The notes below the pieces were generated by a model. That model made no database searches. It saw nothing but the letters and a program-made list of their open reading frames with translations, and was not told where the DNA came from. Positions 407-37,277 of a stretch of DNA of 38,245 nucleotides are shown piece by piece. Source of the DNA: a virus; the IMG/VR virus record IMGVR_UViG_3300025435_000045, positions 1 through 38,245 of that record; one strand, written 5' to 3'. Positions within the stretch are counted from its first letter, which is position 1. The number at the start of each line of letters is the position of its first letter. A program made the position numbers and the translations under genes.

Positions 407-434
407 GGGGAGCAGAAATGCTCCCCTTTTTTTT
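407..434 (+). terminator. Rho-independent terminator after gp32
   Basis: An 8-bp perfect stem (GGGGAGCA at 407-414 with TGCTCCCC at 419-426) closes a GAAA tetraloop and is followed by eight T residues (427-434). It lies 27 bases after the gp32 stop. In the reverse direction the hairpin is followed only by a weak T content, so it is mainly a plus-strand terminator. The convergent minus-strand gene ends inside its T run (stop at 435-433). Confidence 0.93.
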
Positions 435-3400
435 ATGCGTTAGTGTTACCGAATGTATAATTGTTTGTAGGATCTCTTGAAGTATCCTCACTAAACTTAG
501 ATCGGTATACCGCTCTTTGGAATGATGGACTATGGAAAGGTGCCGTTTTATTTTGTCTCACTAGATCGCCAATAAAATTAGGCATATCATTTCTAGGTTC
601 TTGTCTGGTAGTAGGTTGAATTTGAGATGCCTGGCCAGCAGCAGATAAACTATCCAACTCTTGCCTTATGGCATCAAACTCGCTTCTTATATTATCACTA
701 GTTGGGCCCATATTACCATTTACTTTTTGCGATGGTGTTACATCTATTCTCTCGCCGCCTCTAGCAGTGAATAAAGGTTGTTGTGTTTTAGTGTCAATCG
801 CCGCAACATTATCTCTTTTATCCATAGGATAGAAAGAAACATCACCATTAACTCCGAATGATCCACCATCAGAAGCACCAGGTATTCCTTGTGAACGAAG
901 GAAATTACTAGTAGAGGCCGCATCGGGTGGTGTTGCTACAGTAGGCGGTGGTGTAGGTGAAGGAGGCGTTCCAGTGACAGGTGTTGGTGTAGTTTTAGGT
1001 GTAGATGGTACTGCCGTTGGTGTTTGTACCGGTGCTGCCTGCGCCTGTTGTCCACCTCCAGGAAATAATTCTCTTTGTATATTCTGCATAGTTGAAGGAG
1101 GCTGAGGTGCTGCCTGAGGTTGTGGAATAATCACAGATGGTGGTGTAGCAGGCGAAGAAACACCAGGAGGTGTTTGTGCTTGTGCAGTTTCAATTGAAGG
1201 TTGAACTGGTTCAGCAACAGCCAATATGTCTTTTCTTTCCTGATCATATCTGTTTTTATACTTACTAAACTTTTCTGTTCTAACATCAAACAATCCATGA
1301 ACTTGTGTATCAGCATCCATACCTACGGTAGATAGTGCGTCAGGATGATTTAATATCTTATTGGCGGCCCTACGATGTTGAACCGACATACTATACAATG
1401 CCTCTTGAACTTTTGGATGTTCAACATTATATCCTAGTTTCTCTGCCTTTGCTCTTAACGGTTCATAATGCGTTCTTCTAATAAATGCGTGTTGAGCATC
1501 ATCAAATCCATATGGATCTTCTTTGGCCAATTTAGAATAGATATTATTAAATGCTTTAGAACCTGGTCTATGGGATCCAAATTTACTTTTATAATCTGCT
1601 CCTTCTGGTGATTTAAGGAATTCAGACATTGTTCCTGTTCTAGAGGATAACTGGTGAGAACCATATGAAACACCACCTTTATCACCTCTACCGGTTGAAA
1701 TAGTATGAACACCTCTGTTACCGGATTCATACTTAGCAGAGGCATGACCTAATCTTGGTGTTATATTAGCATCGGTCATTGTTCCGGTATCAATTGAGGC
1801 ATACTGTGAATATGCAGACATACTATCTTTTTTTACATCTTTGCCATATCTACTTGCTAGAAATTGTGCGGATGATAATGATGCAGTTTGATTGGAATCA
1901 GCTTGTGAAGTTTTATCACCTTTCTTGAGGAATCTATTTTGATCCAGGCCATTCTCTTTCATATCTTGCATAACTTTTTGAAAACGAGGATCGCTTTCAT
2001 TTATTTCAATTTGAGCACCACTCTTTGTTTTTTTCCATTTTACACCTTGTTCGTCCAACCCAGAAGTAATCTTATTCCATAAATCTTCTCTAGAATATAT
2101 AAAACTGGCAGAAGGATGAGCCTCTAAGATGTTATCAACAATGGACTCTCTACTAAGGTGCCATACAGGTGTTGGTGTTTGCACAGGTACAACTGTAGCA
2201 GTTGATGTGGAAACTGGAGAGGTCTGTTCGGATGTTTTACCTGTTCCTGATTTAATAAAACCACCTAGTGTTCTATCTTCCATTGATGGTGGAGGTGGAG
2301 CAGGTCCTGCTGATGGCCCAGCAGGTGTCTCTGTTGTCAAATTTTTCATTCTATTATTCATATCTTTCCAGTAGTCATCAGTTCTGAACCTTTCGGCCAT
2401 AACTCTTCCTTCTGGAGTACCACCAGGACCTAATGCATTTCTTGTAGGATCTTTACCTTGTATTTCACCATGGCCTACAGGAAAATTAGGAGTACCATCT
2501 TCATTATAAGTTGGTATACCATGTGTCTTATAAAGACCGGGCATAATACGATGGGCAGCATCAATTTGTGCTTGAGTAGGTTTTCCGCCGCCTGTTATGA
2601 ATCCTACACCTAATGCATTGTTATTTGTTAGATCAAATCTACTAGTTCTTTCGGCCGCACCGGCACCTCTAATTTGGTTTGGTCTGTCATCATGACCAGC
2701 CATTTGATATACTTTACCATCTTTATCAATAACATAATGGTAACCATATCCAGTTTTTTTCTGAAACGCCATTTGATCTTGTATTGATTGTGTGCCTGTA
2801 ACATGAAAAACCACACCTTTAAATTTTTCCGCATTTTTAGTTGCTGATGTATTTTTATATGCATACTCCATACCTTCAGCAACGTTATCAGCAATTGATC
2901 CTTTTGTTGCCTGAGAAGAAGGAGGTGTAGCAGCACCTTGACCACCTTTTTGAGGTGTTGTAGCACCCGAGGTAACACTGTCTGGAGGTGCAGTATTGAA
3001 CCTTGACCCTCCAACAACATTTCCTTGTTTCAAATAATTTGGATTGGTTCCTTTTCCATAAGCTGCTGGATCATTAGAGGTAAAATCTGTCTGACTTTTT
3101 GAAACCTTAGGTGTTATATTTTCAATTGCACCAAAAATTGATTCTGATCTTTTACCAGAACCAGGACCTTGCGTATAATTTTTACTCGGTCCTGGAGAAT
3201 ATCTTGTACCAGTTACAGCCTGAAATTGGTTAGGTTCATTTAAAACTGATGTAATACTTTTACCTTTCAATCTTGCTCGGTTAAGTATTGATGCTGAAAC
3301 CATACCAACTTCGGTTTGATTACTACCTGCTTCAGCATGAGTTGCGTTCACTAAATCATTCCATTCTTGATCTGTCATTGACCTACCAAGATAACCTTCA

Positions 3401-3807
3401 GCTGCTTTTCTTGCTTTCAAAGCATCACTGGTAAAATTTGTTTGATTTATTTCAGTTCTTGGTGCCCCGCCTGGTGTAGTAGCAGATGGTCTTACACCAC
3501 CAGTAGAACCTTGTCTTATCTGACGGCCAGCTTGTTCTGCTTGGTCTACGGTACCGCCTCCTCTATGGGCCAGTCCAGTCAATATGTCTTGCTGTTTTTG
3601 TTGAGATTTTTTGGATATAGCATCACGAAAACCACCAACATCGGGCATTCTTCTTTCCCAATATTTTGGAAATAGTTCAGCAAATTGGGTAGGTGTTAAT
3701 AGAGCAAGCATAGTAGCACCAGACGGGCCGTTGGCAACTTCCATTCGTTGCTTTAATGCTAGTTTCTTTAGTTTATTAAATACTGATTTGTTAACCCTAT
3801 TTGCCAT
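433..3807 (-). CDS. Multi-domain tail-associated peptidoglycan hydrolase (three lytic modules)
   Basis: This 1124-residue protein is the last gene of the minus operon; its ATG overlaps the preceding stop (TAATG). Three enzymatic modules can be seen. Residues about 130-235 resemble SleB/cell-wall hydrolase_2, with HAEAG (candidate catalytic E159), SILNRA and NQFQAV. Residues about 325-480 resemble Amidase_2/T7-lysozyme-type N-acetylmuramoyl-L-alanine amidase, with candidate zinc ligands H335, H446 (VGHGEIQ) and D453. Residues about 680-860 resemble a lysozyme-like domain seen in phage and VgrG-associated proteins (KYESGNRG, GRGDKGGVSYGSHQL; candidate catalytic E694). Pro/Thr/Gln-rich linkers separate them (about 262-300, 490-545, 865-965). 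The C-terminus (about 1080-1124) is a short conserved-looking tail that may anchor it to the virion. Position next to gp26/gp51/gp54/gp48 suggests a hub-mounted lysin. A tape-measure role is an alternative, but no long coiled coil or membrane segment is seen. Domain calls are motif-based. Confidence 0.75.
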   Translation of the reverse strand: MANRVNKSVFNKLKKLALKQRMEVANGPSGATMLALLTPTQFAELFPKYWERRMPDVGGFRDAISKKSQQKQQDILTGLAHRGGGTVDQAEQAGRQIRQGSTGGVRPSATTPGGAPRTEINQTNFTSDALKARKAAEGYLGRSMTDQEWNDLVNATHAEAGSNQTEVGMVSASILNRARLKGKSITSVLNEPNQFQAVTGTRYSPGPSKNYTQGPGSGKRSESIFGAIENITPKVSKSQTDFTSNDPAAYGKGTNPNYLKQGNVVGGSRFNTAPPDSVTSGATTPQKGGQGAATPPSSQATKGSIADNVAEGMEYAYKNTSATKNAEKFKGVVFHVTGTQSIQDQMAFQKKTGYGYHYVIDKDGKVYQMAGHDDRPNQIRGAGAAERTSRFDLTNNNALGVGFITGGGKPTQAQIDAAHRIMPGLYKTHGIPTYNEDGTPNFPVGHGEIQGKDPTRNALGPGGTPEGRVMAERFRTDDYWKDMNNRMKNLTTETPAGPSAGPAPPPPSMEDRTLGGFIKSGTGKTSEQTSPVSTSTATVVPVQTPTPVWHLSRESIVDNILEAHPSASFIYSREDLWNKITSGLDEQGVKWKKTKSGAQIEINESDPRFQKVMQDMKENGLDQNRFLKKGDKTSQADSNQTASLSSAQFLASRYGKDVKKDSMSAYSQYASIDTGTMTDANITPRLGHASAKYESGNRGVHTISTGRGDKGGVSYGSHQLSSRTGTMSEFLKSPEGADYKSKFGSHRPGSKAFNNIYSKLAKEDPYGFDDAQHAFIRRTHYEPLRAKAEKLGYNVEHPKVQEALYSMSVQHRRAANKILNHPDALSTVGMDADTQVHGLFDVRTEKFSKYKNRYDQERKDILAVAEPVQPSIETAQAQTPPGVSSPATPPSVIIPQPQAAPQPPSTMQNIQRELFPGGGQQAQAAPVQTPTAVPSTPKTTPTPVTGTPPSPTPPPTVATPPDAASTSNFLRSQGIPGASDGGSFGVNGDVSFYPMDKRDNVAAIDTKTQQPLFTARGGERIDVTPSQKVNGNMGPTSDNIRSEFDAIRQELDSLSAAGQASQIQPTTRQEPRNDMPNFIGDLVRQNKTAPFHSPSFQRAVYRSKFSEDTSRDPTNNYTFGNTNA

Positions 3808-4025
3808 TACATTTTTTTCCGGTTAGCGTGATTTAGTCTATTTTTCAACTCATTCTCACGGTCTTTGGCCTTTTGTTCTTCATCTTTAAGAAACTGTTGT
3901 AATAGGTCAATATAGATATATCGTTCCCAAGGCATCATTGCTTCTAATGTGTCTAGACTCCACTTGTGATGCTGTATCAAACCAAATTGAGTTTTGTAGT
4001 GGTTTTCTAGTCTATCATGTCCCAT
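3807..4025 (-). CDS. Small gp51-position protein; likely -1 frameshift extension of gp26
   Basis: This 72-residue ORF begins two bases after the gp26 stop and overlaps the next gene by one base (TAATG). It contains HHKWSLDTLEAMMPWERYIY and then a charged helical tail rich in Lys/Glu/Asn. In T4 gene 51 (hub assembly catalyst, 249 residues) follows gene 26; here the product is far shorter, so the link to gp51 is by position only. The frame of this ORF is exactly -1 relative to gp26 and is open back to the slippery run at 4040-4034, so it could be made as the C-terminal part of a 314-residue gp26 fusion. The only ribosome-binding site candidate would lie inside the gp26 end and looks poor. Compare lambda G/GT tail chaperones. 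Confidence 0.7.
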   Translation of the reverse strand: MGHDRLENHYKTQFGLIQHHKWSLDTLEAMMPWERYIYIDLLQQFLKDEEQKAKDRENELKNRLNHANRKKM

Positions 4026-4027
4026 TG

Positions 4028-4750
4028 CTACATAAAAAAATCATAGAAATCTGTATACCTCACATTATGATGATATCCACATTTATTACAATCGGCCTCC
4101 ATTTTAACCACAAATGTTGGAAAATTATCAACAAACTCCATCATCTTGTTATAGTTTTCTTCTGTCAAGGTTTCTACAAACTCTTTTAGTTCCTCTTTAC
4201 TATAATCTTTCCAAGAATACATACCTTTGGCATCGTAAATATAGTCAATAGCATTTACAATGGTGTTGGTCTTTTCATCAACTTCGTTTCCAAACTCTAC
4301 TCTTTTCATAGCAGCATAGTTTGGATACCTCATCTTAACACCTTGTTTCTCATTCAACTTAATATCATCACTGATTTTTTCTGGATAAACCACCTCACAT
4401 TTAGCAATATCCATCATAGCAGGAAAAAAATTACCGCAGGTGTTACCATCATCTAGAACGTTGTTACAGGTTAGATTTACCTCAACTGCTTCACCAATAG
4501 ACTTGGCACGTAGAAATATAAACAAAAAGTCTATATCAAAAAATGGTAGTTTATCAATCTCAACTTTACCAGTAATGATACAGTTATTAATAATCTGTTT
4601 AACCGTATTTACAATCTCATTTACGTCTTTAGACTCCATTGCCATTAACAAAAGTTTTTCTTCTTTCACGTTAAATGGTCTAACTTTAATCTTTTCTTTA
4701 TTTGATGGTATCTCAATTTCATATGTTGGTACATCAATTTTTGGTAACAT
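4028..4750 (-). CDS. gp26: Baseplate hub protein gp26 / tail-assembly chaperone-like
   Basis: A 240-residue protein resembling the T4 gp26 family (Pfam T4_baseplate), a protein needed to build the central baseplate hub; T4 gp26 is 208 residues. The sequence opens MLPKIDVPTYEIEIPS followed by KIKVRPFNVKEEK, typical of this family. Two cysteine pairs, C95/C105 and C221/C224 (CNKCGYHH), could form a zinc ribbon. It starts 15 bases after gp54 in the same operon. Its last codons are GAT TTT TTT ATG TAG, so the ribosome meets a seven-T run directly before the stop, with the next ORF open in the -1 frame. This organisation mirrors the G/GT chaperones of long-tailed phages. The family call is from motif memory; the chaperone idea is inference. 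Confidence 0.82.
   Translation of the reverse strand: MLPKIDVPTYEIEIPSNKEKIKVRPFNVKEEKLLLMAMESKDVNEIVNTVKQIINNCIITGKVEIDKLPFFDIDFLFIFLRAKSIGEAVEVNLTCNNVLDDGNTCGNFFPAMMDIAKCEVVYPEKISDDIKLNEKQGVKMRYPNYAAMKRVEFGNEVDEKTNTIVNAIDYIYDAKGMYSWKDYSKEELKEFVETLTEENYNKMMEFVDNFPTFVVKMEADCNKCGYHHNVRYTDFYDFFM
4034..4040 (-). other. Candidate programmed -1 ribosomal frameshift site
   Basis: On the minus strand the end of gp26 reads GAT TTT TTT ATG TAG. The run T TTT TTT is a perfect X XXY YYZ-type slippery heptamer in the gp26 frame. Slipping back one base gives TTT TTT TAT GTA GCA ATG GGA, which runs without a stop into the 72-residue ORF. The -1 frame has a TGA at 4043-4041 immediately upstream, so it becomes open only at the slippery run. 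No strong downstream stem-loop was recognised by eye. Confidence 0.65.
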
Positions 4751-25433: not shown

Positions 25434-28013
25434 ATGGGAATTGCAAACGTTAACCTCACTGATACATTCCAAACCTGGGTTACTAAAACTAACCAGGTGA
25501 TCATTTATGCAAACCAGTTAGATAATACGCAAAATTTACAGTTTCAAGCTCTAAATACATCTTTCACCACTTTGAATTCTGCATATACAACGACAAATTC
25601 TAGTTATGTCGTTACTAACATTGCTTTCAATACCACAAATGCTTGTTATAACGTAACAAATGCTAATTATGATACAACAAATGCTAACTATATCCTTACC
25701 AATTCAGCATTTGTTCGTGTAAATTCGGTTTATGATCTAACAAATTCCAATTATGATACAACCAATGCAGCATGGGGTATGCTAAATTCTGCATATGTTG
25801 TTGCCAACGCAGCATATAATAATGCCAATGTTGGTTTTATTTCTACTAATAACTATGCTAATCTTGTAGGTATATCCTCTAATGCTTATGCCGTAGTGGT
25901 TGGAGCATCCGCAAATGCATATACAAATGTTGTAGGTTCATCATCCAATGCTTATACCAATGTTGCGGTAACAGCATCAAATGCATATACAAATGTTGTA
26001 GGTTCATCGGCCAATGCTTATTCAAATTTTGTAGGAATAGCAGGAAATGCTTATACCAATGTTGCGGTAACAGCATCAAATGCATATACAAATGTTGTAG
26101 GTTCATCGGCCAATGCTTATTCCGTAGTAATTGGTGCCTCTGGTAATGCTTATGCCAACGTAGTTGGTACATCAGGCAATTCTTATACGGTTGTTGTTGG
26201 TACATCAGGTAATGCATTTGCCAATGTTGTTGGTGTTAATGCTAATAACTGGAGCAATTCATATTCTAATACGGTTGGTGTTAATGCTAATAACTGGGCA
26301 AATACCGTAGTTCTTAATGCCAATACATATGCTAACTTGGTTGGTGCTAGTGCTAATGCCTATACAATGACCGTGGATTCAAAGGCACAATCGGCATTTA
26401 CCTTAGCAAATAACGTAAACGGTGCTATAACACTTATATTAGGAAATAGTGCAAACTCTCTACAAGTAGCACAAGCAAACTATAATACAACCAATGCGGC
26501 GTTTGACTCTGCTAACACAACTGCTAATAATCTCGCTAATACCGCCGTTGCTGCCAATAACTATGCTGGTTATATGGCAAATTCCGCCAACGGCCGCGCT
26601 AATACTACCGTTGCTGCTGCTTATGCATATGTAAATACTACCTCATCTTCAATAAATGCTTATGCTAACCTTGTCGGAACATCTGGCAATGCTTATATAG
26701 TTGTTGTTGGTGCTTCAGGAAATGCTTATACAAATACAGTAACAGCATCCGATAGAGCATATACCAATACATCCGTAACATCGGCTAATGCCTATTCCGT
26801 AGTAGTTGGTGCCTCTGGTAATGCCTATTCAAACGTTGTAGGAGCATCTGGTAATGCTTATGCTAACGTAGTTGGTGCCTCTGGTAATGCATACTCCAAC
26901 GTAGTTGGAACGTCAGGAAACGCCTATTCAGTAGTAGTTGGAGCATCTGGTAATGCCTATACTAACGTAGTTGGAACTAGTGCCAATAACTATGCGTCGG
27001 CCACATATTATGCTAAAGTGGGCGGAACAATTTCAGGCGATGTATTCATTACAGGCAACTTAACCATTGCTGGTAATACCACATATGCCAATACAAATAC
27101 ATTCCTTGTAGGAAATAATACTATTGTCCTTGATACAAACTTACCAAGTTCTGCATCACCATTCTTAAACGCAGGTATCATTGTTAATAGAGGCAATAAA
27201 AATTCTAATGCTGCTATTACATGGGTTGAAGTATCAAATGCTTGGGCATTTACAAGTAATACACTAAATGCTTACACAACTTTTATCGCATCAAATGGTG
27301 ATGTTCTTTCTGTAGCAACAAATACAACTGCTGCTTTCGGACATTCTAATTTAACTTATGCAGCAGTAAATAGTGCCTTTGGTGTTATCAATGCCGCCTT
27401 TGGTGTTGCTAATAATGCCTATACTTCCACTAATGGTTCTGCTGCCTTTGGTTTTGCTAATGGTGTTTCAACCAATACTACCGCAGCATTTGCCAAAGCA
27501 AATGGTGTATCAGCCGGTGCTAATGCTTATGCCTCATCGGTTGGTACTTCTACCAATAACTATACATCTGCTACTTACTCAACATTAACACAATTTGGAT
27601 CAGTGTTTGGTGTTGCTAATTCTGCTTTTACAAAAGCAAATAATGCTGCTACTTCTGCTAATCCAACATTTACAGGAACAATTGATCTTACATCTGCAAG
27701 TTTTAAAAACCAAACATTAACAGATGCAGCAACAATTTCGTGGGATACATCATTAGGCACAGTTGCAACTATCACATTAGGCGACAACAGGATTATGGGT
27801 GCTCCGACAAATCTCAAAGTTTCTACATATATACTACACGTTTATCAAGACTCAACAGGAGATAGAACTCTTGATTTTACAACCGCAGGTATATTCAAAT
27901 GGCCAGGAGGTGTTGCTCCTGTAATAACACCAGGTCCAAATGCTCATGATGTTATTTCTTTTGTCTGTGATGGTACTTATCTTTATGGATCATGGTTACC
28001 AGACGTAACTTAA
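25434..28013 (+). CDS. Tail fibre protein 1 (heptad and hendecad Asn/Ala/Tyr repeats)
   Basis: An 859-residue fibre. Residues 43-133 are 13 seven-residue units with an aromatic at position 2 and Asn at position 6 (NYDTTNA, AFNTTNA). Residues 149-269 and 407-516 are 11-residue units of the form x-N-A-Y-x-x-V-V-G-x-S, 11 and 10 copies. Residues about 523-610 carry a phage-fibre module (TGNLTIAGNTTYANTNTF, VLDTNLPSSASPF, IIVNRGN) paralogous to one in the 376-residue fibre. The C-terminal 110 residues (ISWDTSLGTVATITL, FKWPGGVAPVITP, SFVCDGTYLYGSW) are paralogous to the end of the 1665-residue fibre and are probably the distal receptor-contacting head. The ATG abuts the previous stop; AAGGA at 25417-25421. 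Confidence 0.85.
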   Translation: MGIANVNLTDTFQTWVTKTNQVIIYANQLDNTQNLQFQALNTSFTTLNSAYTTTNSSYVVTNIAFNTTNACYNVTNANYDTTNANYILTNSAFVRVNSVYDLTNSNYDTTNAAWGMLNSAYVVANAAYNNANVGFISTNNYANLVGISSNAYAVVVGASANAYTNVVGSSSNAYTNVAVTASNAYTNVVGSSANAYSNFVGIAGNAYTNVAVTASNAYTNVVGSSANAYSVVIGASGNAYANVVGTSGNSYTVVVGTSGNAFANVVGVNANNWSNSYSNTVGVNANNWANTVVLNANTYANLVGASANAYTMTVDSKAQSAFTLANNVNGAITLILGNSANSLQVAQANYNTTNAAFDSANTTANNLANTAVAANNYAGYMANSANGRANTTVAAAYAYVNTTSSSINAYANLVGTSGNAYIVVVGASGNAYTNTVTASDRAYTNTSVTSANAYSVVVGASGNAYSNVVGASGNAYANVVGASGNAYSNVVGTSGNAYSVVVGASGNAYTNVVGTSANNYASATYYAKVGGTISGDVFITGNLTIAGNTTYANTNTFLVGNNTIVLDTNLPSSASPFLNAGIIVNRGNKNSNAAITWVEVSNAWAFTSNTLNAYTTFIASNGDVLSVATNTTAAFGHSNLTYAAVNSAFGVINAAFGVANNAYTSTNGSAAFGFANGVSTNTTAAFAKANGVSAGANAYASSVGTSTNNYTSATYSTLTQFGSVFGVANSAFTKANNAATSANPTFTGTIDLTSASFKNQTLTDAATISWDTSLGTVATITLGDNRIMGAPTNLKVSTYILHVYQDSTGDRTLDFTTAGIFKWPGGVAPVITPGPNAHDVISFVCDGTYLYGSWLPDVT
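25560..25832 (+). repeat. 21-bp (7-residue) coding repeats, 13 units
   Basis: Thirteen successive 21-base units in fibre 1 encode seven-residue repeats of the pattern x-aromatic-x-x-(T/A/L)-N-(A/S). The DNA has diverged more than the protein, mostly at third codon positions. Confidence 0.85.
25878..26240 (+). repeat. 33-bp (11-residue) coding repeats, first block of 11
   Basis: Eleven successive 33-base units encode x-N-A-Y-x-x-V-V-G-x-S. A 77-base stretch (25947-26023) recurs without change at 26046-26122, an offset of exactly three units (99 bases), showing a recent duplication or gene conversion. Confidence 0.9.
26652..26981 (+). repeat. 33-bp (11-residue) coding repeats, second block of 10
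   Basis: Ten further 33-base units in fibre 1 encode the same 11-residue motif (for example GNAYSVVVGAS, GNAYSNVVGAS). They are separated from the first block by about 410 bases of less regular Asn/Ala-rich coding sequence. Confidence 0.9.
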
Positions 28014-29747: not shown

Positions 29748-30395
29748 ATGTCGGATTCAAGTGCTTTTGTTAATTCTTATATTGAAAATGCGATTGGAAT
29801 GTTACATGAAAATATAAGTACCATTCTACAATTAAAAACGCAGACAAAATTATCAAATGATATAGCAAAAGCAAAAGTTGAAGAAGTAATAAAACTCCAA
29901 GAAGAGTTGAATAAAGTTAAATCCGAATTGGAAATGAGTAAGTCCGACCTACAATCAAAGTTGGACTTTACTCGTTCCGATTTGGAAGGCAAATTAAGTA
30001 ATACTCGCACAGAACTGCAAAAAACTAAAACAATTGACAATGAGCAAATAAATAATGCTCGTAAAGATGCCAAAAGATGGGAAGATGAATGTAATGCATT
30101 GAAAAATAAAGTATCAGTTTTAGATACTTTGACTAATCAATTCAATGATGTAAAAAAGCAACTTATTGATAAAAATAATGAATTTAATTCTTTAAAAGAA
30201 AAATATGATAGTTTACAAAACTTAGCTACTGAATTAGATAAACTGAAAAAATTACTTGATGAAAAAGAAAAACAAATAGAAATACTTGAAAATCAAAATG
30301 TTAAAAAATCGTCTCAATCTTTTCCTAAAAAAAGTATAAATACTAAAAACATTGTTTCATCTGTAGAACCGGAAGAGAAAGCTGACGATTTTTAA
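29748..30395 (+). CDS. Coiled-coil protein within the fibre cassette
   Basis: A 215-residue, highly charged, nearly all-helical protein. From residue about 40 to 185 it shows continuous heptads (EELNKVKSELEMSKSDLQSK, ELDKLKKLLDEKEKQIEILE) with an internally repeated K-S-D-L/K-L pattern, then a Ser/Lys-rich acidic tail. The N-terminal 35 residues (SAFVNSYIENAIGMLHENIS) are less charged. ATG 29748 is preferred over an in-frame TTG six bases earlier because GGAG (29737-29740) is seven bases from it. Its Lys/Glu-rich composition differs sharply from the flanking Asn/Ala/Gly fibres. Possible roles are fibre rod, assembly chaperone or cytoplasmic scaffold; none can be shown. Its stop overlaps the next ATG (TAATG). 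Confidence 0.78.
   Translation: MSDSSAFVNSYIENAIGMLHENISTILQLKTQTKLSNDIAKAKVEEVIKLQEELNKVKSELEMSKSDLQSKLDFTRSDLEGKLSNTRTELQKTKTIDNEQINNARKDAKRWEDECNALKNKVSVLDTLTNQFNDVKKQLIDKNNEFNSLKEKYDSLQNLATELDKLKKLLDEKEKQIEILENQNVKKSSQSFPKKSINTKNIVSSVEPEEKADDF
30335..30342 (+). promoter_or_regulatory. TATAAATA box 53 bases before fibre 3
   Basis: A perfect late consensus lies within the end of the coiled-coil gene. A start near 30348 would give a 47-base leader with GGAAGAG at about 30370-30376. Because the motif is also expected by chance in AT-rich DNA, this is only a candidate. Confidence 0.35.
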
Positions 30396-32218
30396 TGTCA
30401 AACACAGTAATTCAACTTAAAAGTTCCGGTGTACCGTCTCATATTCCGACTAGTCTGGCCAATGGTGAGATTGCTCTTAACTATGCTGATGGTAAATTTT
30501 ATTATAAAAACGTTACAGGACAAATTGTAAGTTTTTCTGGTTCTGGTAATGTTTATAGTTTTGCTACTATTAATGCCAATAACTCTCTTATTACAGCACT
30601 AAGTAATAGTTCAGTTCTTTCTATAGTTCCAGGTCAAAATATTGGTATTACTTCCGATATTATCAACGACATCATAACTATTAGTGCTAATTTAAAACCA
30701 GCATTTGACATTGCCAATTCTGCATTTAACTATGCTAATACGCTTTCAGGTGGATTAAATCTTACAGACATTAGTGATAGAGCAAACCTTGCTTTAGATG
30801 AGGCAAACGCTGCCTATGATGTTGCCAATGCTGCCTATGGTGCTGCTAATGCTGCCAGTGGTGGTATTGATATTACAGCGATTTATAATGAGGCAAACGC
30901 TGCCTATGATGTTGCCAATGCTGCCTTTAATTATGCTAATGGAATTGGAACTTATGAATCCGCTTCTTATAATGTTGCTAATGCGGCATTTGACAAGGCC
31001 AATTCTGCCAACTCTCTAGCATATAATACTGGTATTGGTGCAAATAACTATGCCGGTGCAATGGCTAATAGTTCTAATGGTTATGCATATAATGTAGGTA
31101 TTTCTGGTAATGCATATGCCGATACAATTGGAACAAATGCTAATAATTATGCCAATCTATCATTTTATACCATTGCTAACGGACAATCTTTATATGATAC
31201 ATCTAATGCAGCATTTGGTGTCGCTAATTCAGCATATGATAATGCCAATGCTACATTAATACTAACACAGGCAGCATTTGATTATGCCAACTCTATAGGT
31301 ACCAGTGAAAGTGCGGCGTATCTTGTTGCTAATGATGCCTTTGATACAGCCAATGCTGCTTATGATAAAGCAAACTCTGCCAATTCTTTAGCATACAATA
31401 CTGGTATCGGTGCTAATGCTTATTCTTACATCTCAACATCTTCTGCAAATAACTATGCTGGTGTTATGGCAAATTCTGTTAATGCTTATGTTGATACATC
31501 CACCAGTGCTGCCAATAACTTTGCCGGTGCAATGGCAAATTCATCCAATGCCTATACCAGAACATTTGCTAATACAGTTGGTGTAAAAGCAAACACATGG
31601 GCCAATACCGTTGGTGCTTCTGGAAATGCTTATACTAATCTATCCACAACATCTGCCAATAACTATGCTGGATATCTATCAAATACTGTATATGGTTATG
31701 TAAACACCTCTATGACAATTGCCAATGCAGCATTTGATAATTCCAATACTTCATATAATCTGACAAATGCAACCTATACTGCGGTTAATTCAGCATTTGG
31801 TGTTATCAATGCGGCATTTACAACTGCTAATAATGCACTGGCAAACAATTCTGGTAGCGTATTTAATGGTGACCTGATAATTACAGGAAGTGTAACAGTA
31901 GGATCTTCCGAACTCACAAACTTTACATTAACAACATCTTCAAATAATGACCAAATTCTAGACCATTTCCAAACAACTTCATATCGTTCGGCTCATTATA
32001 CTATTACAATTGATGCTGGTGTTGAATGGGAAACCACACAGATTTCTCTAATTCATAATAGCACAGATACATTTATTACAGAATATGGATTGTTATATAC
32101 TTCCAACATTCTTGCTACATTTAGTGCATCTGTTACTTTAGGTGAAGTTAGATTAAATGTTGTTCCTAAGTATGCTTCTTCTACAATTAGAGTATTAAGA
32201 ACAACACTTGATGATTAA
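30395..32218 (+). CDS. Tail fibre protein 3 (607 residues)
   Basis: The N-terminus (MSNTVIQLKSSGVPSH, SLANGEIALNYADGKFYY) is a common phage tail-fibre start. The body from about residue 105 to 490 is Asn/Ala/Tyr-rich heptad and hendecad repeat (AAYDVANAAYGAANA, ANNYAGAMANSSNGYAY), including a 40-base direct repeat in the DNA. The C-terminal 110 residues (NDQILDHFQTTSYRSAHYTI, WETTQISLIHN, VRLNVVPKYASSTIRVLR) form a distinct beta-rich head seen in other T4-like marine phage fibres and in several virion proteins that end with I-R-V-L/R-T. Its ATG overlaps the upstream stop. It is unlike the heads of fibres 1 and 4, so it may recognise a different surface feature or be an inner fibre segment. 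Confidence 0.82.
   Translation: MSNTVIQLKSSGVPSHIPTSLANGEIALNYADGKFYYKNVTGQIVSFSGSGNVYSFATINANNSLITALSNSSVLSIVPGQNIGITSDIINDIITISANLKPAFDIANSAFNYANTLSGGLNLTDISDRANLALDEANAAYDVANAAYGAANAASGGIDITAIYNEANAAYDVANAAFNYANGIGTYESASYNVANAAFDKANSANSLAYNTGIGANNYAGAMANSSNGYAYNVGISGNAYADTIGTNANNYANLSFYTIANGQSLYDTSNAAFGVANSAYDNANATLILTQAAFDYANSIGTSESAAYLVANDAFDTANAAYDKANSANSLAYNTGIGANAYSYISTSSANNYAGVMANSVNAYVDTSTSAANNFAGAMANSSNAYTRTFANTVGVKANTWANTVGASGNAYTNLSTTSANNYAGYLSNTVYGYVNTSMTIANAAFDNSNTSYNLTNATYTAVNSAFGVINAAFTTANNALANNSGSVFNGDLIITGSVTVGSSELTNFTLTTSSNNDQILDHFQTTSYRSAHYTITIDAGVEWETTQISLIHNSTDTFITEYGLLYTSNILATFSASVTLGEVRLNVVPKYASSTIRVLRTTLDD
30798..30927 (+). repeat. 40-base direct repeat in fibre 3
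   Basis: A 40-base sequence encoding EANAAYDVANAA occurs at 30798-30837 and again at 30888-30927 without a mismatch seen by eye. The spacing of 90 bases keeps the reading frame. Confidence 0.85.
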
Positions 32219-32279: not shown

Positions 32280-35200
32280 GTGTCAAACAAAGAATTTATA
32301 GTCCGCAATGGGCTAGTTGTCACTGCCAATGCAAACATCACAAATCCAACACTGTTGGTTGCCGGACAAAACGTCCTAGCATCAATCATTTCTGCCAATA
32401 ACTATGCTGGTTATATGGCAAATTCCTCTAATGTCTATGTCGATACGTCTACCAATGCAGCAAACAACTATGCCGGCGTTATGGCAAACGGTGCAGGTAC
32501 CATCGCCAATGCGGCCTTTGGTCATTCCAATACAACATATGCTGCGGTCAATTCTGCTTTTGGTGTTATCAATGCCTCATTTGGTTCAGCAAATACCGTA
32601 GGTGGTTATGCCAATACAGCTGGATCACTAGCTAACCAGGCAGGTGTTATTGCAAATGCAGCATTTGGTTCATCCAATACAGCAGGATCATACGCAAACA
32701 CTGCCGGTGGTAATGCCAATCAGGCAGGTGTTATTGCTAACGCATCTTTTACTATTGCTAATGGTGCTTATGATCATTCCAATAACATATCCATTTCTGC
32801 CAATAATTGGGCAAATACAGTTGGTGCCGCAGGTAATGTTTATGTAAATACAGCGACTCAAAGTGCTAATAATTATGCCGGTGTTATGGCAAATGCATCT
32901 AATGCTTGGGCTAATACAACCGGTGTTTCTGGTAATAATTATGCTGGACTTATGGCAAATAGTTCCAATGGTTATGCTTATACCATTGGTATCTCCGGTA
33001 ATGCTTATGCTAACTTTGTAGGTGCTGCTGCCAATGCTTATTCTGGGTCAATTGGAGTAAATGCCAATGCTTATGCCAATACTGTAGCAATAGCATCCAA
33101 TAATTATACAAACGTTGCAGTTGCCGCAGTAAATGCTTATGTCAACTTATCAACCTCAGCATCTAATACCTGGTCCAATACTGTTGGTGCTTCAGGTAAT
33201 GCCTATGTAAATCTATCCACATCATCAGCAAATAACTATGCTGGTGCAATGGCAAATGCGGTCAATGCTTATACTGCATCATCTTATACAGTCAAGGGAG
33301 CATATGATGTTGCTAATGCGGCCTTTGGTATCGCTAATGCTGGATATGTTTCAGGTAATGCTAACTATGTTCTAACAAATACCGTATTTGGTATAGTCAA
33401 TACTGTTTATGGAATCTCAAATGTAGCAGCATCAACCTCTGCCAATACCACATACGATCTCCAGATGCGTGGTTTCGTCAAGGCAAGTGATACATCCATT
33501 TCAGTTGGTGGATATCAAAACAACACATTTACCCTTTCCAATACAAACAACGGTTGGGCCTACTATATGAATGGCCAGCGATATGTTTGTTATGGTGCCA
33601 GAACTGCAAATCTTGCGATATCAGCACCTGCCGCTAATGGTAATTATTGGGTTAGTATTAATAACGATACAAATGGCACACTAACAGTTTCTACAACAGC
33701 ATGGAATATGAATGACCCAACCACTGTTCCAGTTGCCTTCATTCAATATAATTCTTATACTAGCCCAATGTTCCATTTGGATGATAAAAGGTTCTTATCT
33801 TCTTCAACAACAACATTAGATTATTATTTACATACTGTTCTTGGTACAAGAGCAACAACTGTAGGTGCATTAAGCGGATATACTGTAGGTGGTACATCAA
33901 ATGCTAATAATCTTATTAGTGTTAGTACCACCATATTACAAGAAGAGTCCTTAACAAAAACTCAATCAGCATTGAACGTTACAGGTGTTGCAAGTAATAA
34001 CTATATCACATATTATAGATTATCTTCAGGTCCTGATGTATGGACCTGGGGTTATTCCGATATGCCATATTACCATGATGGTGGTATCATCCAGTGGGAT
34101 AATAATGGTACACTAACTACTGGTACCAATAACAAATATTATAACTCTTATCTATTGTTTACCACTTATCAAGGTGCCGGTCGTTTTATATTCGTCAACG
34201 GTAGAGGTTCATTCAACTCTTCTGCCGAGGCACAGTTGGAAGACATTACAACATGGGATTGGTCATCACTACAAGGTGTTGAATATGTCTTTGCGTACCA
34301 ACTTACATGGAAGGCACTAAACTCTCTAAACACATCAGGCAAGGCACAGCTTGCCGTTGCTCCTCGTGCGCTAAACATTACAACGGCACCATCTGCCAGT
34401 ATTCCTACCAATCCTGCTCATAACTCATTAGCAGGTATTCAAGGTGGGTTACCAAACACAGAGTTCTTCCATCTAACAGCGTCCGAATATGGAACTTTAC
34501 AAGCCAATATCGGAGTTGCGGCATTTAACCTTGTAAATACCGTATTTGGTGGTGCTAATGCTTTAGGTGCTCAAGATAACGTAGCATTTAATGTTACCAA
34601 TGCGGCCTTTGGTGTTGCTAACGCAGCATACAATAATGCCAATGTTGGTTTAGCAGCATCTAATGCCTATAGTAATACTGTAGGTATTTCTGGAAATGCT
34701 TATGTAAATCTATCAACATCCGCAGCAAATGCTTATGCTATAACAATTGGTGCTTCAGGCAATGCATATGCTAACTTTGTTGGTACGGCAGGAAATGCTT
34801 ACGTAAACTTTGCTACCATTGCTGCTAACGGATATTCTAATACAATAGCAATTGCTGCAAATAACTATACAAATGCATCCACAACATCAGCCAATAATTA
34901 TGCTGGTGCAATGGCAAATGCTGCCAATGGTTATACAGCAACATCTGCCGGATCTGCTAATAACTTTGCCGGTTCTATGGCCAATAGTTCCAACTCTTGG
35001 GCTAACCAGGTTGCGGTATATGCCAACTCATATGCTAATACTATTGCCGTAGCAGCAAATAATTATGCCGGATTTATGGCCAATAGTTCTAATAGCTATG
35101 CAATATCAGTTGGTGACGCGGCTAATGCTAATGCACAAGTTGGTCACGCATCTGCAAACAACTATGCTGGTGTAATGGCCAATAGTGCTAATGCTTATGC

Positions 35201-37277
35201 TACTGCCACTTATGCAACACAGACCACCGTTGCTACTAATGCAACAAGTGCTAATAACTATGCTGGTGCCATGGCCAACGCAGCAAATGCTGTTGCTGCA
35301 ACAAAGGTTGCATCTGTTACCGGTACATCTGGTCAAATCTTTAGTTCTGGTGGTACAACACCTACAATCAACCTAATTTCTACTGGCGTTACTTCCACCA
35401 CATACGGTGGTTCTACACAGATTCCAGTAATTGCTGTTGATACTTATGGTCGTTTGACATCTGCCGCAAATGTTACTGTTCAAGGTATGGATTATCCATA
35501 TGTCAATACTTCCGTTGCCGCGGCCAATAACTGGGCAAATACAAAATTATCAAATACAAGTGGTGTTGTATTTAACGGTAATATAACATACACTGGTTAT
35601 GTTACTGCTAATAACGGTCTATATTCAGGAAATAATTTCACCGGTTCATTTACAGATGGTATTGTTGTTGATTATGTAACAGGCAATGGTCGTATCAGTG
35701 TCGGTACATCCGATGGCCTACAATTCTTTGCTGGTGGTGTTGGTACAAACATTCTTATGTCTTTGACACCATCTGGTTACATTGGTCTTGGTACAGCAAA
35801 TCCTGCATATCCAGTTCAAATTATTACAGGTGGTGCTACATCAACCACACTTGCCGGTGCTATCTTTGATGCTGAAGGTACATCAAACTTTACAACTCAG
35901 TTGAATATCCGCAACGCAACAAACGGTGTTGGTTCTTCATCTGACTTGGTTGCAACTGCTGATAACGGTACAGATACTACAAACTTTATTGACGTTGGTA
36001 TCAATAGTTCCGGATATAATCAGGCAGGTTGGACAATCAACGGCGCAGGTGATGGATATGTTTATACATCCGACGGTGCTCTATCAATTGGTACCGCAAA
36101 CACTTCCGTAACGAACAAATACATTTCATTCTTCGTTCGTGGTACTTTAGCATCAAACGAAGCTATGCGTATTCAGGATTCTGTTGGTGGTGCCAATGTT
36201 GGTATTGGCACAACAAATCCACAGTATAAGTTGGATGTTGCTGGTACCGCAAACATAGCAAACGTATTGGTTGTCAATGGCGTAAATGTTGTTCCATCGT
36301 TTGCTTCAACCAATAACTGGTCTAATGTTTATTCTAATACCGTTGGTGTTAATGCAAACAACTGGTCTAATGTTTATGCTAACCAGGTTGGTACTAATGC
36401 CAATACTTACGCCTCCAGTGTTGGCGTAAATGCCAATACATGGGCCAACTCTAAAGTTTATTCAATAACAAGCAATAGCACTTCAAGAGTTTGGGCAAAT
36501 ACTATTACAACCAGCGGTTATCAAAATGTTTATATTGACCTTGCTACATCGGGTGTTACAGCAACCACATATGGTGGTGCTTCTGCAATTCCTGTTATCA
36601 CAATTGATGCCTATGGTCGTGTTACTGCGGCAGCAAACCAATCAGTTACAAGTGGTGGTGTTACTTCACTGTCACAAGGCACCGGTCTTTCATTCAGTGC
36701 CAATCCTATTACCACAACCGGTACAATTTCACTTGCGTCTGGTATTGTTACTGCACAGGCATGGACAGGTGGTATTTCTGCAATAACAACAGATACTTAT
36801 GGTCGTGTAACATCGGTTACTGCTTCTGCTGGTTATCTTACATCTGCCGTAACGTCTCTTTCACAAGGCACAGGTCTTTCATTCAGTGCCAATCCTATTA
36901 CCACAACCGGTACAATTTCTATTGATTATACCACATTCAATGCTGGAACACCTGCACAGTCAATGACAGTTACCTCATTGTCCGATTCTTCCGGTACAAT
37001 TTCGTGGGATGCCTCGACATCAAGAATGGCAACTGTTACAATGTCTGGTACCGGTAGAACTATGGCAAATCCAACCAACTTAAAGGCTGGATCCTATATA
37101 TTAATAATAAAGCAAGATGCTACAGGTTCAAGAACCATCACCACATGGGGTTCAGTATTCAAGTGGCCTGCCGCAGTAGCACCAGTATTATCAACAACCG
37201 CATCCACTACCGATGTATTCTCCTTCTGGTGTGATGGTACTAACTTGTATGGTACATACATTCCAGATTGTAGATAA
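32280..37277 (+). CDS. Giant tail fibre protein 4 (1665 residues)
   Basis: GTG start chosen because it directly follows the strong ribosome-binding site and gives the typical fibre start MSNKEFIVRNGLVVTANANI. Residues about 30-390 and 755-1010 are Asn/Ala/Tyr/Gly repeat rods (NNYAGVMANSSNGYAY, GNAYVNLSTSAAN). Between them (about 393-755) is a large globular domain with NGWAYYMNGQRYVCYGAR, MFHLDDKRF and GIQGGLPNTEFFHLTASEYG. Later modules include TYGGSTQIPVIAVDTYGRLT, duplicated as TYGGASAIPVITIDAYGRVT, GIGTTNPQYKLDVAGTANI, and a 59-base DNA repeat. The last 105 residues (ISWDASTSRMATVTM, FKWPAAVAPVLS, SFWCDGTNLYGTY) are paralogous to the end of fibre 1. It is the longest fibre in the window and probably the long host-binding fibre. 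Confidence 0.85.
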   Translation: MSNKEFIVRNGLVVTANANITNPTLLVAGQNVLASIISANNYAGYMANSSNVYVDTSTNAANNYAGVMANGAGTIANAAFGHSNTTYAAVNSAFGVINASFGSANTVGGYANTAGSLANQAGVIANAAFGSSNTAGSYANTAGGNANQAGVIANASFTIANGAYDHSNNISISANNWANTVGAAGNVYVNTATQSANNYAGVMANASNAWANTTGVSGNNYAGLMANSSNGYAYTIGISGNAYANFVGAAANAYSGSIGVNANAYANTVAIASNNYTNVAVAAVNAYVNLSTSASNTWSNTVGASGNAYVNLSTSSANNYAGAMANAVNAYTASSYTVKGAYDVANAAFGIANAGYVSGNANYVLTNTVFGIVNTVYGISNVAASTSANTTYDLQMRGFVKASDTSISVGGYQNNTFTLSNTNNGWAYYMNGQRYVCYGARTANLAISAPAANGNYWVSINNDTNGTLTVSTTAWNMNDPTTVPVAFIQYNSYTSPMFHLDDKRFLSSSTTTLDYYLHTVLGTRATTVGALSGYTVGGTSNANNLISVSTTILQEESLTKTQSALNVTGVASNNYITYYRLSSGPDVWTWGYSDMPYYHDGGIIQWDNNGTLTTGTNNKYYNSYLLFTTYQGAGRFIFVNGRGSFNSSAEAQLEDITTWDWSSLQGVEYVFAYQLTWKALNSLNTSGKAQLAVAPRALNITTAPSASIPTNPAHNSLAGIQGGLPNTEFFHLTASEYGTLQANIGVAAFNLVNTVFGGANALGAQDNVAFNVTNAAFGVANAAYNNANVGLAASNAYSNTVGISGNAYVNLSTSAANAYAITIGASGNAYANFVGTAGNAYVNFATIAANGYSNTIAIAANNYTNASTTSANNYAGAMANAANGYTATSAGSANNFAGSMANSSNSWANQVAVYANSYANTIAVAANNYAGFMANSSNSYAISVGDAANANAQVGHASANNYAGVMANSANAYATATYATQTTVATNATSANNYAGAMANAANAVAATKVASVTGTSGQIFSSGGTTPTINLISTGVTSTTYGGSTQIPVIAVDTYGRLTSAANVTVQGMDYPYVNTSVAAANNWANTKLSNTSGVVFNGNITYTGYVTANNGLYSGNNFTGSFTDGIVVDYVTGNGRISVGTSDGLQFFAGGVGTNILMSLTPSGYIGLGTANPAYPVQIITGGATSTTLAGAIFDAEGTSNFTTQLNIRNATNGVGSSSDLVATADNGTDTTNFIDVGINSSGYNQAGWTINGAGDGYVYTSDGALSIGTANTSVTNKYISFFVRGTLASNEAMRIQDSVGGANVGIGTTNPQYKLDVAGTANIANVLVVNGVNVVPSFASTNNWSNVYSNTVGVNANNWSNVYANQVGTNANTYASSVGVNANTWANSKVYSITSNSTSRVWANTITTSGYQNVYIDLATSGVTATTYGGASAIPVITIDAYGRVTAAANQSVTSGGVTSLSQGTGLSFSANPITTTGTISLASGIVTAQAWTGGISAITTDTYGRVTSVTASAGYLTSAVTSLSQGTGLSFSANPITTTGTISIDYTTFNAGTPAQSMTVTSLSDSSGTISWDASTSRMATVTMSGTGRTMANPTNLKAGSYILIIKQDATGSRTITTWGSVFKWPAAVAPVLSTTASTTDVFSFWCDGTNLYGTYIPDCR
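36672..36919 (+). repeat. 59-base direct repeat near the end of fibre 4
   Basis: The sequence at 36672-36730 recurs at 36861-36919 with a single difference (accggt versus acaggt). Both encode SQGTGLSFSANPITTTGTIS. The offset of 189 bases preserves the frame. Confidence 0.93.

Follow-up and report, generated by a model that had tools for sequence, protein, structure and literature searches.

A gp26/gp51-type tail-assembly chaperone pair, probably expressed by -1 frameshifting, in a T4-like phage

Tail-assembly chaperone genes of T4-like phages were reportedly identified by Vladimirov, Gautam and Davidson in 2022; the abstract of that study is said to describe frameshifting as conserved in several T4-like groups, with T4 itself using genes 26 and 51 instead. 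Two later papers credit the same study with poly-T -1 signals in the TAC-N (short chaperone) genes of T4-like phages (PMC12846349) and with the finding that some T4-like phages carry a short gene and a separate fused long gene (PMC10885494). In a 2010 review, T4 gp26 and gp51 are presented as hub assembly chaperones (PMC3004832). Short and long products are likewise made from one gene, by a -1 slip near the end of the short gene, in phage lambda (gpG/gpGT) and the lambda-like chaperones (Xu, Hendrix and Duda 2004). Phage Adele, of the Vandenendeviridae/Andersonviridae, also has a T-rich -1 site and an unannotated C-terminal domain, but the motif of its group is GTTTTT and not T TTT TTN (PMC12846349).

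Here we describe the gp26 locus of a stretch of viral DNA of 38,245 nucleotides (IMG/VR record IMGVR_UViG_3300025435_000045), hereafter the window. The locus is very probably one gene with two products, a 240-residue TAC-N and a 314-residue TAC-NC made via -1 slippage. As judged by sequence comparison and structure prediction, it is a new, unannotated member of the short/long (TAC-N/TAC-NC) chaperone pairs, like lambda G/GT. The gene families are 26 and 51, the same as in the T4-like pairs of Vladimirov et al. (2022), and nothing essential differs from what the two citing papers report of them. The initial annotation was therefore mistaken in supposing that a frameshift pair had perhaps not been established for gp26 and gp51, since one had been described earlier (cited in PMC12846349 and PMC10885494). 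Because the chaperone frameshift of T4-like phages was published before, the present finding is a correct rediscovery in a new lineage.

Organization of the locus and its predicted slip site

The features of the locus are listed in Table 1.

Table 1. Features of the gp26 locus in the window.
Feature	Position	Strand	Basis
gp26 homologue, short chaperone form (TAC-N), 240 aa	4028..4750	-	PF12322, phrog_150, hhalign to T4 gp26, N-terminal fold
Slippery heptamer T TTT TTT in the gp26 frame	4034..4040	-	direct reading; kept across lineages
TGA, -1 frame stop adjoining the slippery run on its 5' side	4041..4043	-	direct reading; absent in many relatives
TAG, 0-frame stop of gp26, one codon (ATG) past the heptamer	4028..4030	-	direct reading
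Predicted -1 frame extension (TAC-C, gp51-like), via slippage	3807..4040	-	phrog_634; conserved motif; T4 gp51 C-terminus homology
ORF2 ATG, the annotation's likely choice; no Shine-Dalgarno upstream	4023..4025	-	direct reading
Downstream gene, 1124 aa, amidase and VgrG3-like domains; overlaps the ORF2 end	433..3807	-	PF01510, PF21277

The minus strand at the junction reads GAT TTC TAT GAT TTT TTT ATG TAG CA ATG GGA CAT. After a slip at the two Phe codons, reading would continue as TAT GTA GCA ATG GGA... and stay open to the stop at 3809-3807 on the minus strand, giving a long product of 314 residues (239 from gp26 plus 75). The ORF of the -1 extension (ORF2) has 72 residues, and its ATG lies two bases past the gp26 stop in the window and its nearest relatives. 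Direct reading thus bears out what the initial annotation had stated of this junction: that gp26 ends GAT TTT TTT ATG TAG with T TTT TTT in the right phase, and that the -1 frame runs into the 72-residue ORF to give a 314-residue fusion. Its further statement that a TGA directly upstream closes the -1 frame holds for the window phage (4043-4041) and some relatives but not as a general feature; in many relatives the -1 frame is open further upstream.

The heptamer is unlike the slippery sequence of lambda, which is G GGA AAG. T7 runs are common in the AT-rich window, with 12 observed versus 24 expected from shuffles, so that the T run alone proves nothing and its conservation decides. Another seven-T run lies within gp26 at 4424-4430 on the minus strand.

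The neighbouring genes are of T4 type and belong to the tail and to head completion (tail tube, tube cap, head closure, DNA end protector, gp53 and other baseplate genes). The pair is followed in Pelagibacter phage HTVC008M by a small gene and then by a tape-measure-like protein; weaker tape-measure matches were found past the pair in Caulobacter phage Cr30, Ochrobactrum phage OC and Vibrio phage QD01. No tape-measure gene was identified within the window. The gene of the 1124-residue protein occupies the place that the tape-measure gene has in several relatives, and its product shows no similarity to the HTVC008M tape measure. The first ~60-90 and last ~150 residues of this protein are kept among relatives, and the middle part, with the amidase and the VgrG3-like muramidase, is often unmatched. 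Its sequence suggests that it could be a mosaic tail-associated lysin. Elsewhere in the window, three large ORFs without a PHROG match are located on the plus strand (25434-28010, 30395-32215 and 32280-37274; 859, 607 and 1665 aa).

Relationship to the T4 proteins gp26 and gp51, and a predicted chaperone fold

The window gp26 matches PF12322 (T4_baseplate; E 9.6e-57) and phrog_150 (baseplate hub; E 1.5e-59), and is ~37% identical to the closest isolates. For ORF2, the search gave phrog_634 (baseplate hub assembly catalyst, the gp51 family; E 1.3e-23), together with a weak match to the C-terminal end of phrog_150. In T4, gene 26 (208 aa) and gene 51 (249 aa) lie on opposite strands. T4 gp26 aligns with the family over its full length (hhalign probability 99), and its gene ends in GAG TTC TTT GAG with no slippery run. 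In T4 gp51, residues 3-248 match phrog_150 and residues 147-246 match phrog_634; hhalign pairs its C-terminus with the -1 extension (E 3.3e-5, probability 72). Because gp51 joins a gp26-like and an ORF2-like domain, the long form is encoded in frame in T4, by a gene other than that of the short form. The two T4 genes are on opposite strands and gene 26 has no slippery run, whereas the window has one locus with such a run.

Sequence searches found no significant relative of solved structure for gp26 or ORF2, and Pfam and PHROG searches found no match of the window proteins to lambda-like chaperone families. The predicted structure of gp26 (mean pLDDT 88) was compared with solved tail chaperones, as the initial annotation had proposed. 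With Foldseek alone, no PDB match of gp26 reached significance, the HK97 structure 2ob9 in the second row included. When the Foldseek candidates were aligned, residues 1-94 of the model matched best 3fgx (Z 7.9), the HK97 tail assembly chaperone 2ob9 (Z 7.7) and YqbN, 3klu (Z 7.2), with an rmsd of 3.5 over 79-85 residues and Z values just below 8, a range where the alignment tool warns of common arrangements. The next candidates were the phage-satellite protein 5ir0 (Z 4.4) and then unrelated chains at Z of 3.2 or less. We take YqbN and 3fgx to represent XkdN-type phage tail chaperone families.

The N-terminal domain of the gp26 model thus has a chaperone-like fold, comparable to HK97 gp14 and YqbN; we regard this match as moderate evidence, because Foldseek alone is weak and the match rests on the second alignment. 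In contrast to the lambda-like chaperones, gp26 has extra domains with Cys pairs past the chaperone domain. The extension encoded by ORF2 is predicted to be helical, in a model of moderate quality (pLDDT 76, pTM 0.49).

Conservation of the predicted slip site and of the -1 frame

Relatives were collected in two scans, the first of which yielded 80 IMG/VR loci, and from GenBank isolates. The resulting set includes 172 loci with 147 distinct proteins in 99 lineages (<70% protein identity). Loci were gathered with gp26 peptides distant from the C-terminal end, so their choice is independent of the slip site. In every scored case among the first 80 loci, ORF2 lies in the -1 frame and a T run is in phase. 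In the complete set, ORF2 occupies the -1 frame in each of the 99 lineages; this frame stays open for at least 128 bases beyond the gp26 stop, and in the relatives it contains the conserved motif HHKYSLxEIExMxPWER. The in-phase heptamer T TTT TTN is present in 95 lineages, its last codon beginning 3 to 12 bases before the stop. The initial annotation had called for such an alignment of gp26 loci, to be judged by the T run and the -1 phase, and had held loss of the run or any other phase against the pair: an in-phase T TTT TTN is absent from 4 of the 99 lineages, and another phase occurs in none.

One could suppose that the T run merely encodes a conserved C-terminal Phe-Phe of gp26 in AT-rich genomes. 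Phe-Phe is nearly invariant at this end of the protein and, as noted above, T7 runs are common in the window; even so, we consider this reading extremely improbable. In all 95 lineages, the codon that precedes the Phe pair (for Asp, Ser, Asn, Phe, Arg or Ala) has T in its third position and the first Phe is encoded by TTT; elsewhere in the genes, T-ending codons account for ~65%. With body rates of 0.64 and 0.65, the corresponding probability products are ~1e-22 and ~1e-20.6; they overstate significance because the lineages share ancestry and the 95 were picked by motif match, but the direction of the nucleotide-level conservation is clear, since the motif fails in just four of 99 lineages. 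The last base of the second Phe codon, which is free under the slippery rule, varies (C in 61 lineages, T in 29, A in 4, G in 1). The heptamer is kept in Stenotrophomonas and Xanthomonas phages despite the G/C-rich codons around it. Finally, T4 gene 26, in a phage with a separate long gene, encodes the pair as TTC TTT. This comparison of sequences shows constraint beyond codon usage at the first two motif positions, and protein constraint on Phe-Phe is an insufficient explanation.

The start codons of ORF2 bear on whether gp26 and ORF2 could be separate genes, the second being expressed through stop-restart coupling at the ATG that lies two bases past the stop. This ATG in the window and its nearest relatives would suit such coupling, and database records either list ORF2 separately, as gp51 'baseplate hub assembly catalyst', or omit it. 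However, no ATG occurs upstream of the conserved core of ORF2 in 52 of the 95 lineages, no ATG, GTG or TTG start is found in 28, and a Shine-Dalgarno-like site before the first possible start was detected in none. Separate genes would also leave the in-phase heptamer, the constant -1 frame and the fused T4 gp51 unexplained, and we judge this arrangement very improbable. In the 28 lineages that have no usual start codon, frameshifting is therefore the only plausible expression route. The two routes might coexist in the window phage, with some free ORF2 product made by restart in addition to the frameshift fusion. This combination is compatible with the frameshift pair as such and draws on the ATG within restart distance of the stop in the close relatives of the window, but the ORF2 ATG is not conserved family-wide; we find it unlikely for the window phage, and free ORF2 is not a general requirement because that ATG is not conserved across the family.

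Possible stimulators of slippage were searched for on both sides of the site. At offsets of 0-15 past it, predicted RNA structure compared with shuffles has a mean z of -0.9 to -1.0, and 20-26% of lineages fall below -2; away from the site the mean z is about 0 to -0.4, with 5-12% of lineages below -2. This difference in predicted folding points to a potential downstream hairpin in a subset of lineages. In the window itself the predicted folds past the site are weak, with no clear hairpin. An upstream Shine-Dalgarno-like stimulator was rejected: 61 of the 95 lineages have one, versus 59.3 expected from codon choice.

The view of the initial annotation that gp26 and the next ORF form a G/GT-type -1 pair is thus supported by conservation and by the in-frame fusion in T4 gp51; its suggestion that gp26 may be a tail-assembly chaperone gains further support from the structural match to solved chaperones.

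Proposed expression, variant sites and annotation

We propose the following model for the one-gene, two-product arrangement. Most ribosomes would stop at the gp26 stop codon and release the 240-residue short chaperone (TAC-N). A fraction of them would slip back by one base while the TTT TTT Phe codons are in the P and A sites; reading on past the stop, these ribosomes would append the 75-residue helical domain and yield the 314-residue TAC-NC. By analogy with lambda gpG and gpGT, the short form could coat or stabilise the tape-measure protein during tail assembly, and the extra domain of the long form could recruit tail-tube subunits, so that tail assembly would start on the hub.

The four lineages that do not have T TTT TTN are phages Guerrero, 1.255.O, D494 and BX-1, all of Ackermannviridae type and all retaining the -1 ORF. 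The record of D494 gives no family; its gp26 and -1 ORF are closely similar to those of 1.255.O, a member of the Ackermannviridae. The junctions in these phages are CTT TTT, CTT TTC, GTT TTT or ATT TTC. Such an NTT TTT / NTT TTC junction resembles the GTTTTT motif of the Vandenendeviridae (PMC12846349). We tentatively speculate, considering it somewhat less probable than the contrary, that the frameshift is ancestral to the T4-like tail module, that it was replaced by a reduced site (NTT TTT/NTT TTC, a one-codon slip) in Ackermannviridae and by gene duplication in the T4 group, and that short and long forms would be selected for whatever the mechanism. The Ackermannviridae variant site and the family-wide downstream RNA structure may have been undescribed so far. 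Novelty is otherwise limited to the new lineage member and the breadth of the comparison, and includes the variant site only possibly.

Annotation is lagging, because none of 15 annotated non-T4 isolates shows gp26 as a joined CDS. Public records either list the -1 extension on its own, as a baseplate hub assembly catalyst or a hypothetical gene, start it inside the domain, or omit it.

The comparison of 99 lineages provides a broad, quantitative confirmation of the published proposal. In many cyanophage-type records, the small 'gp51 baseplate hub assembly catalyst' gene is most likely no independent gene and instead encodes the end of a long chaperone made by frameshifting; reassigning this gp51-type gene would correct annotation widely.
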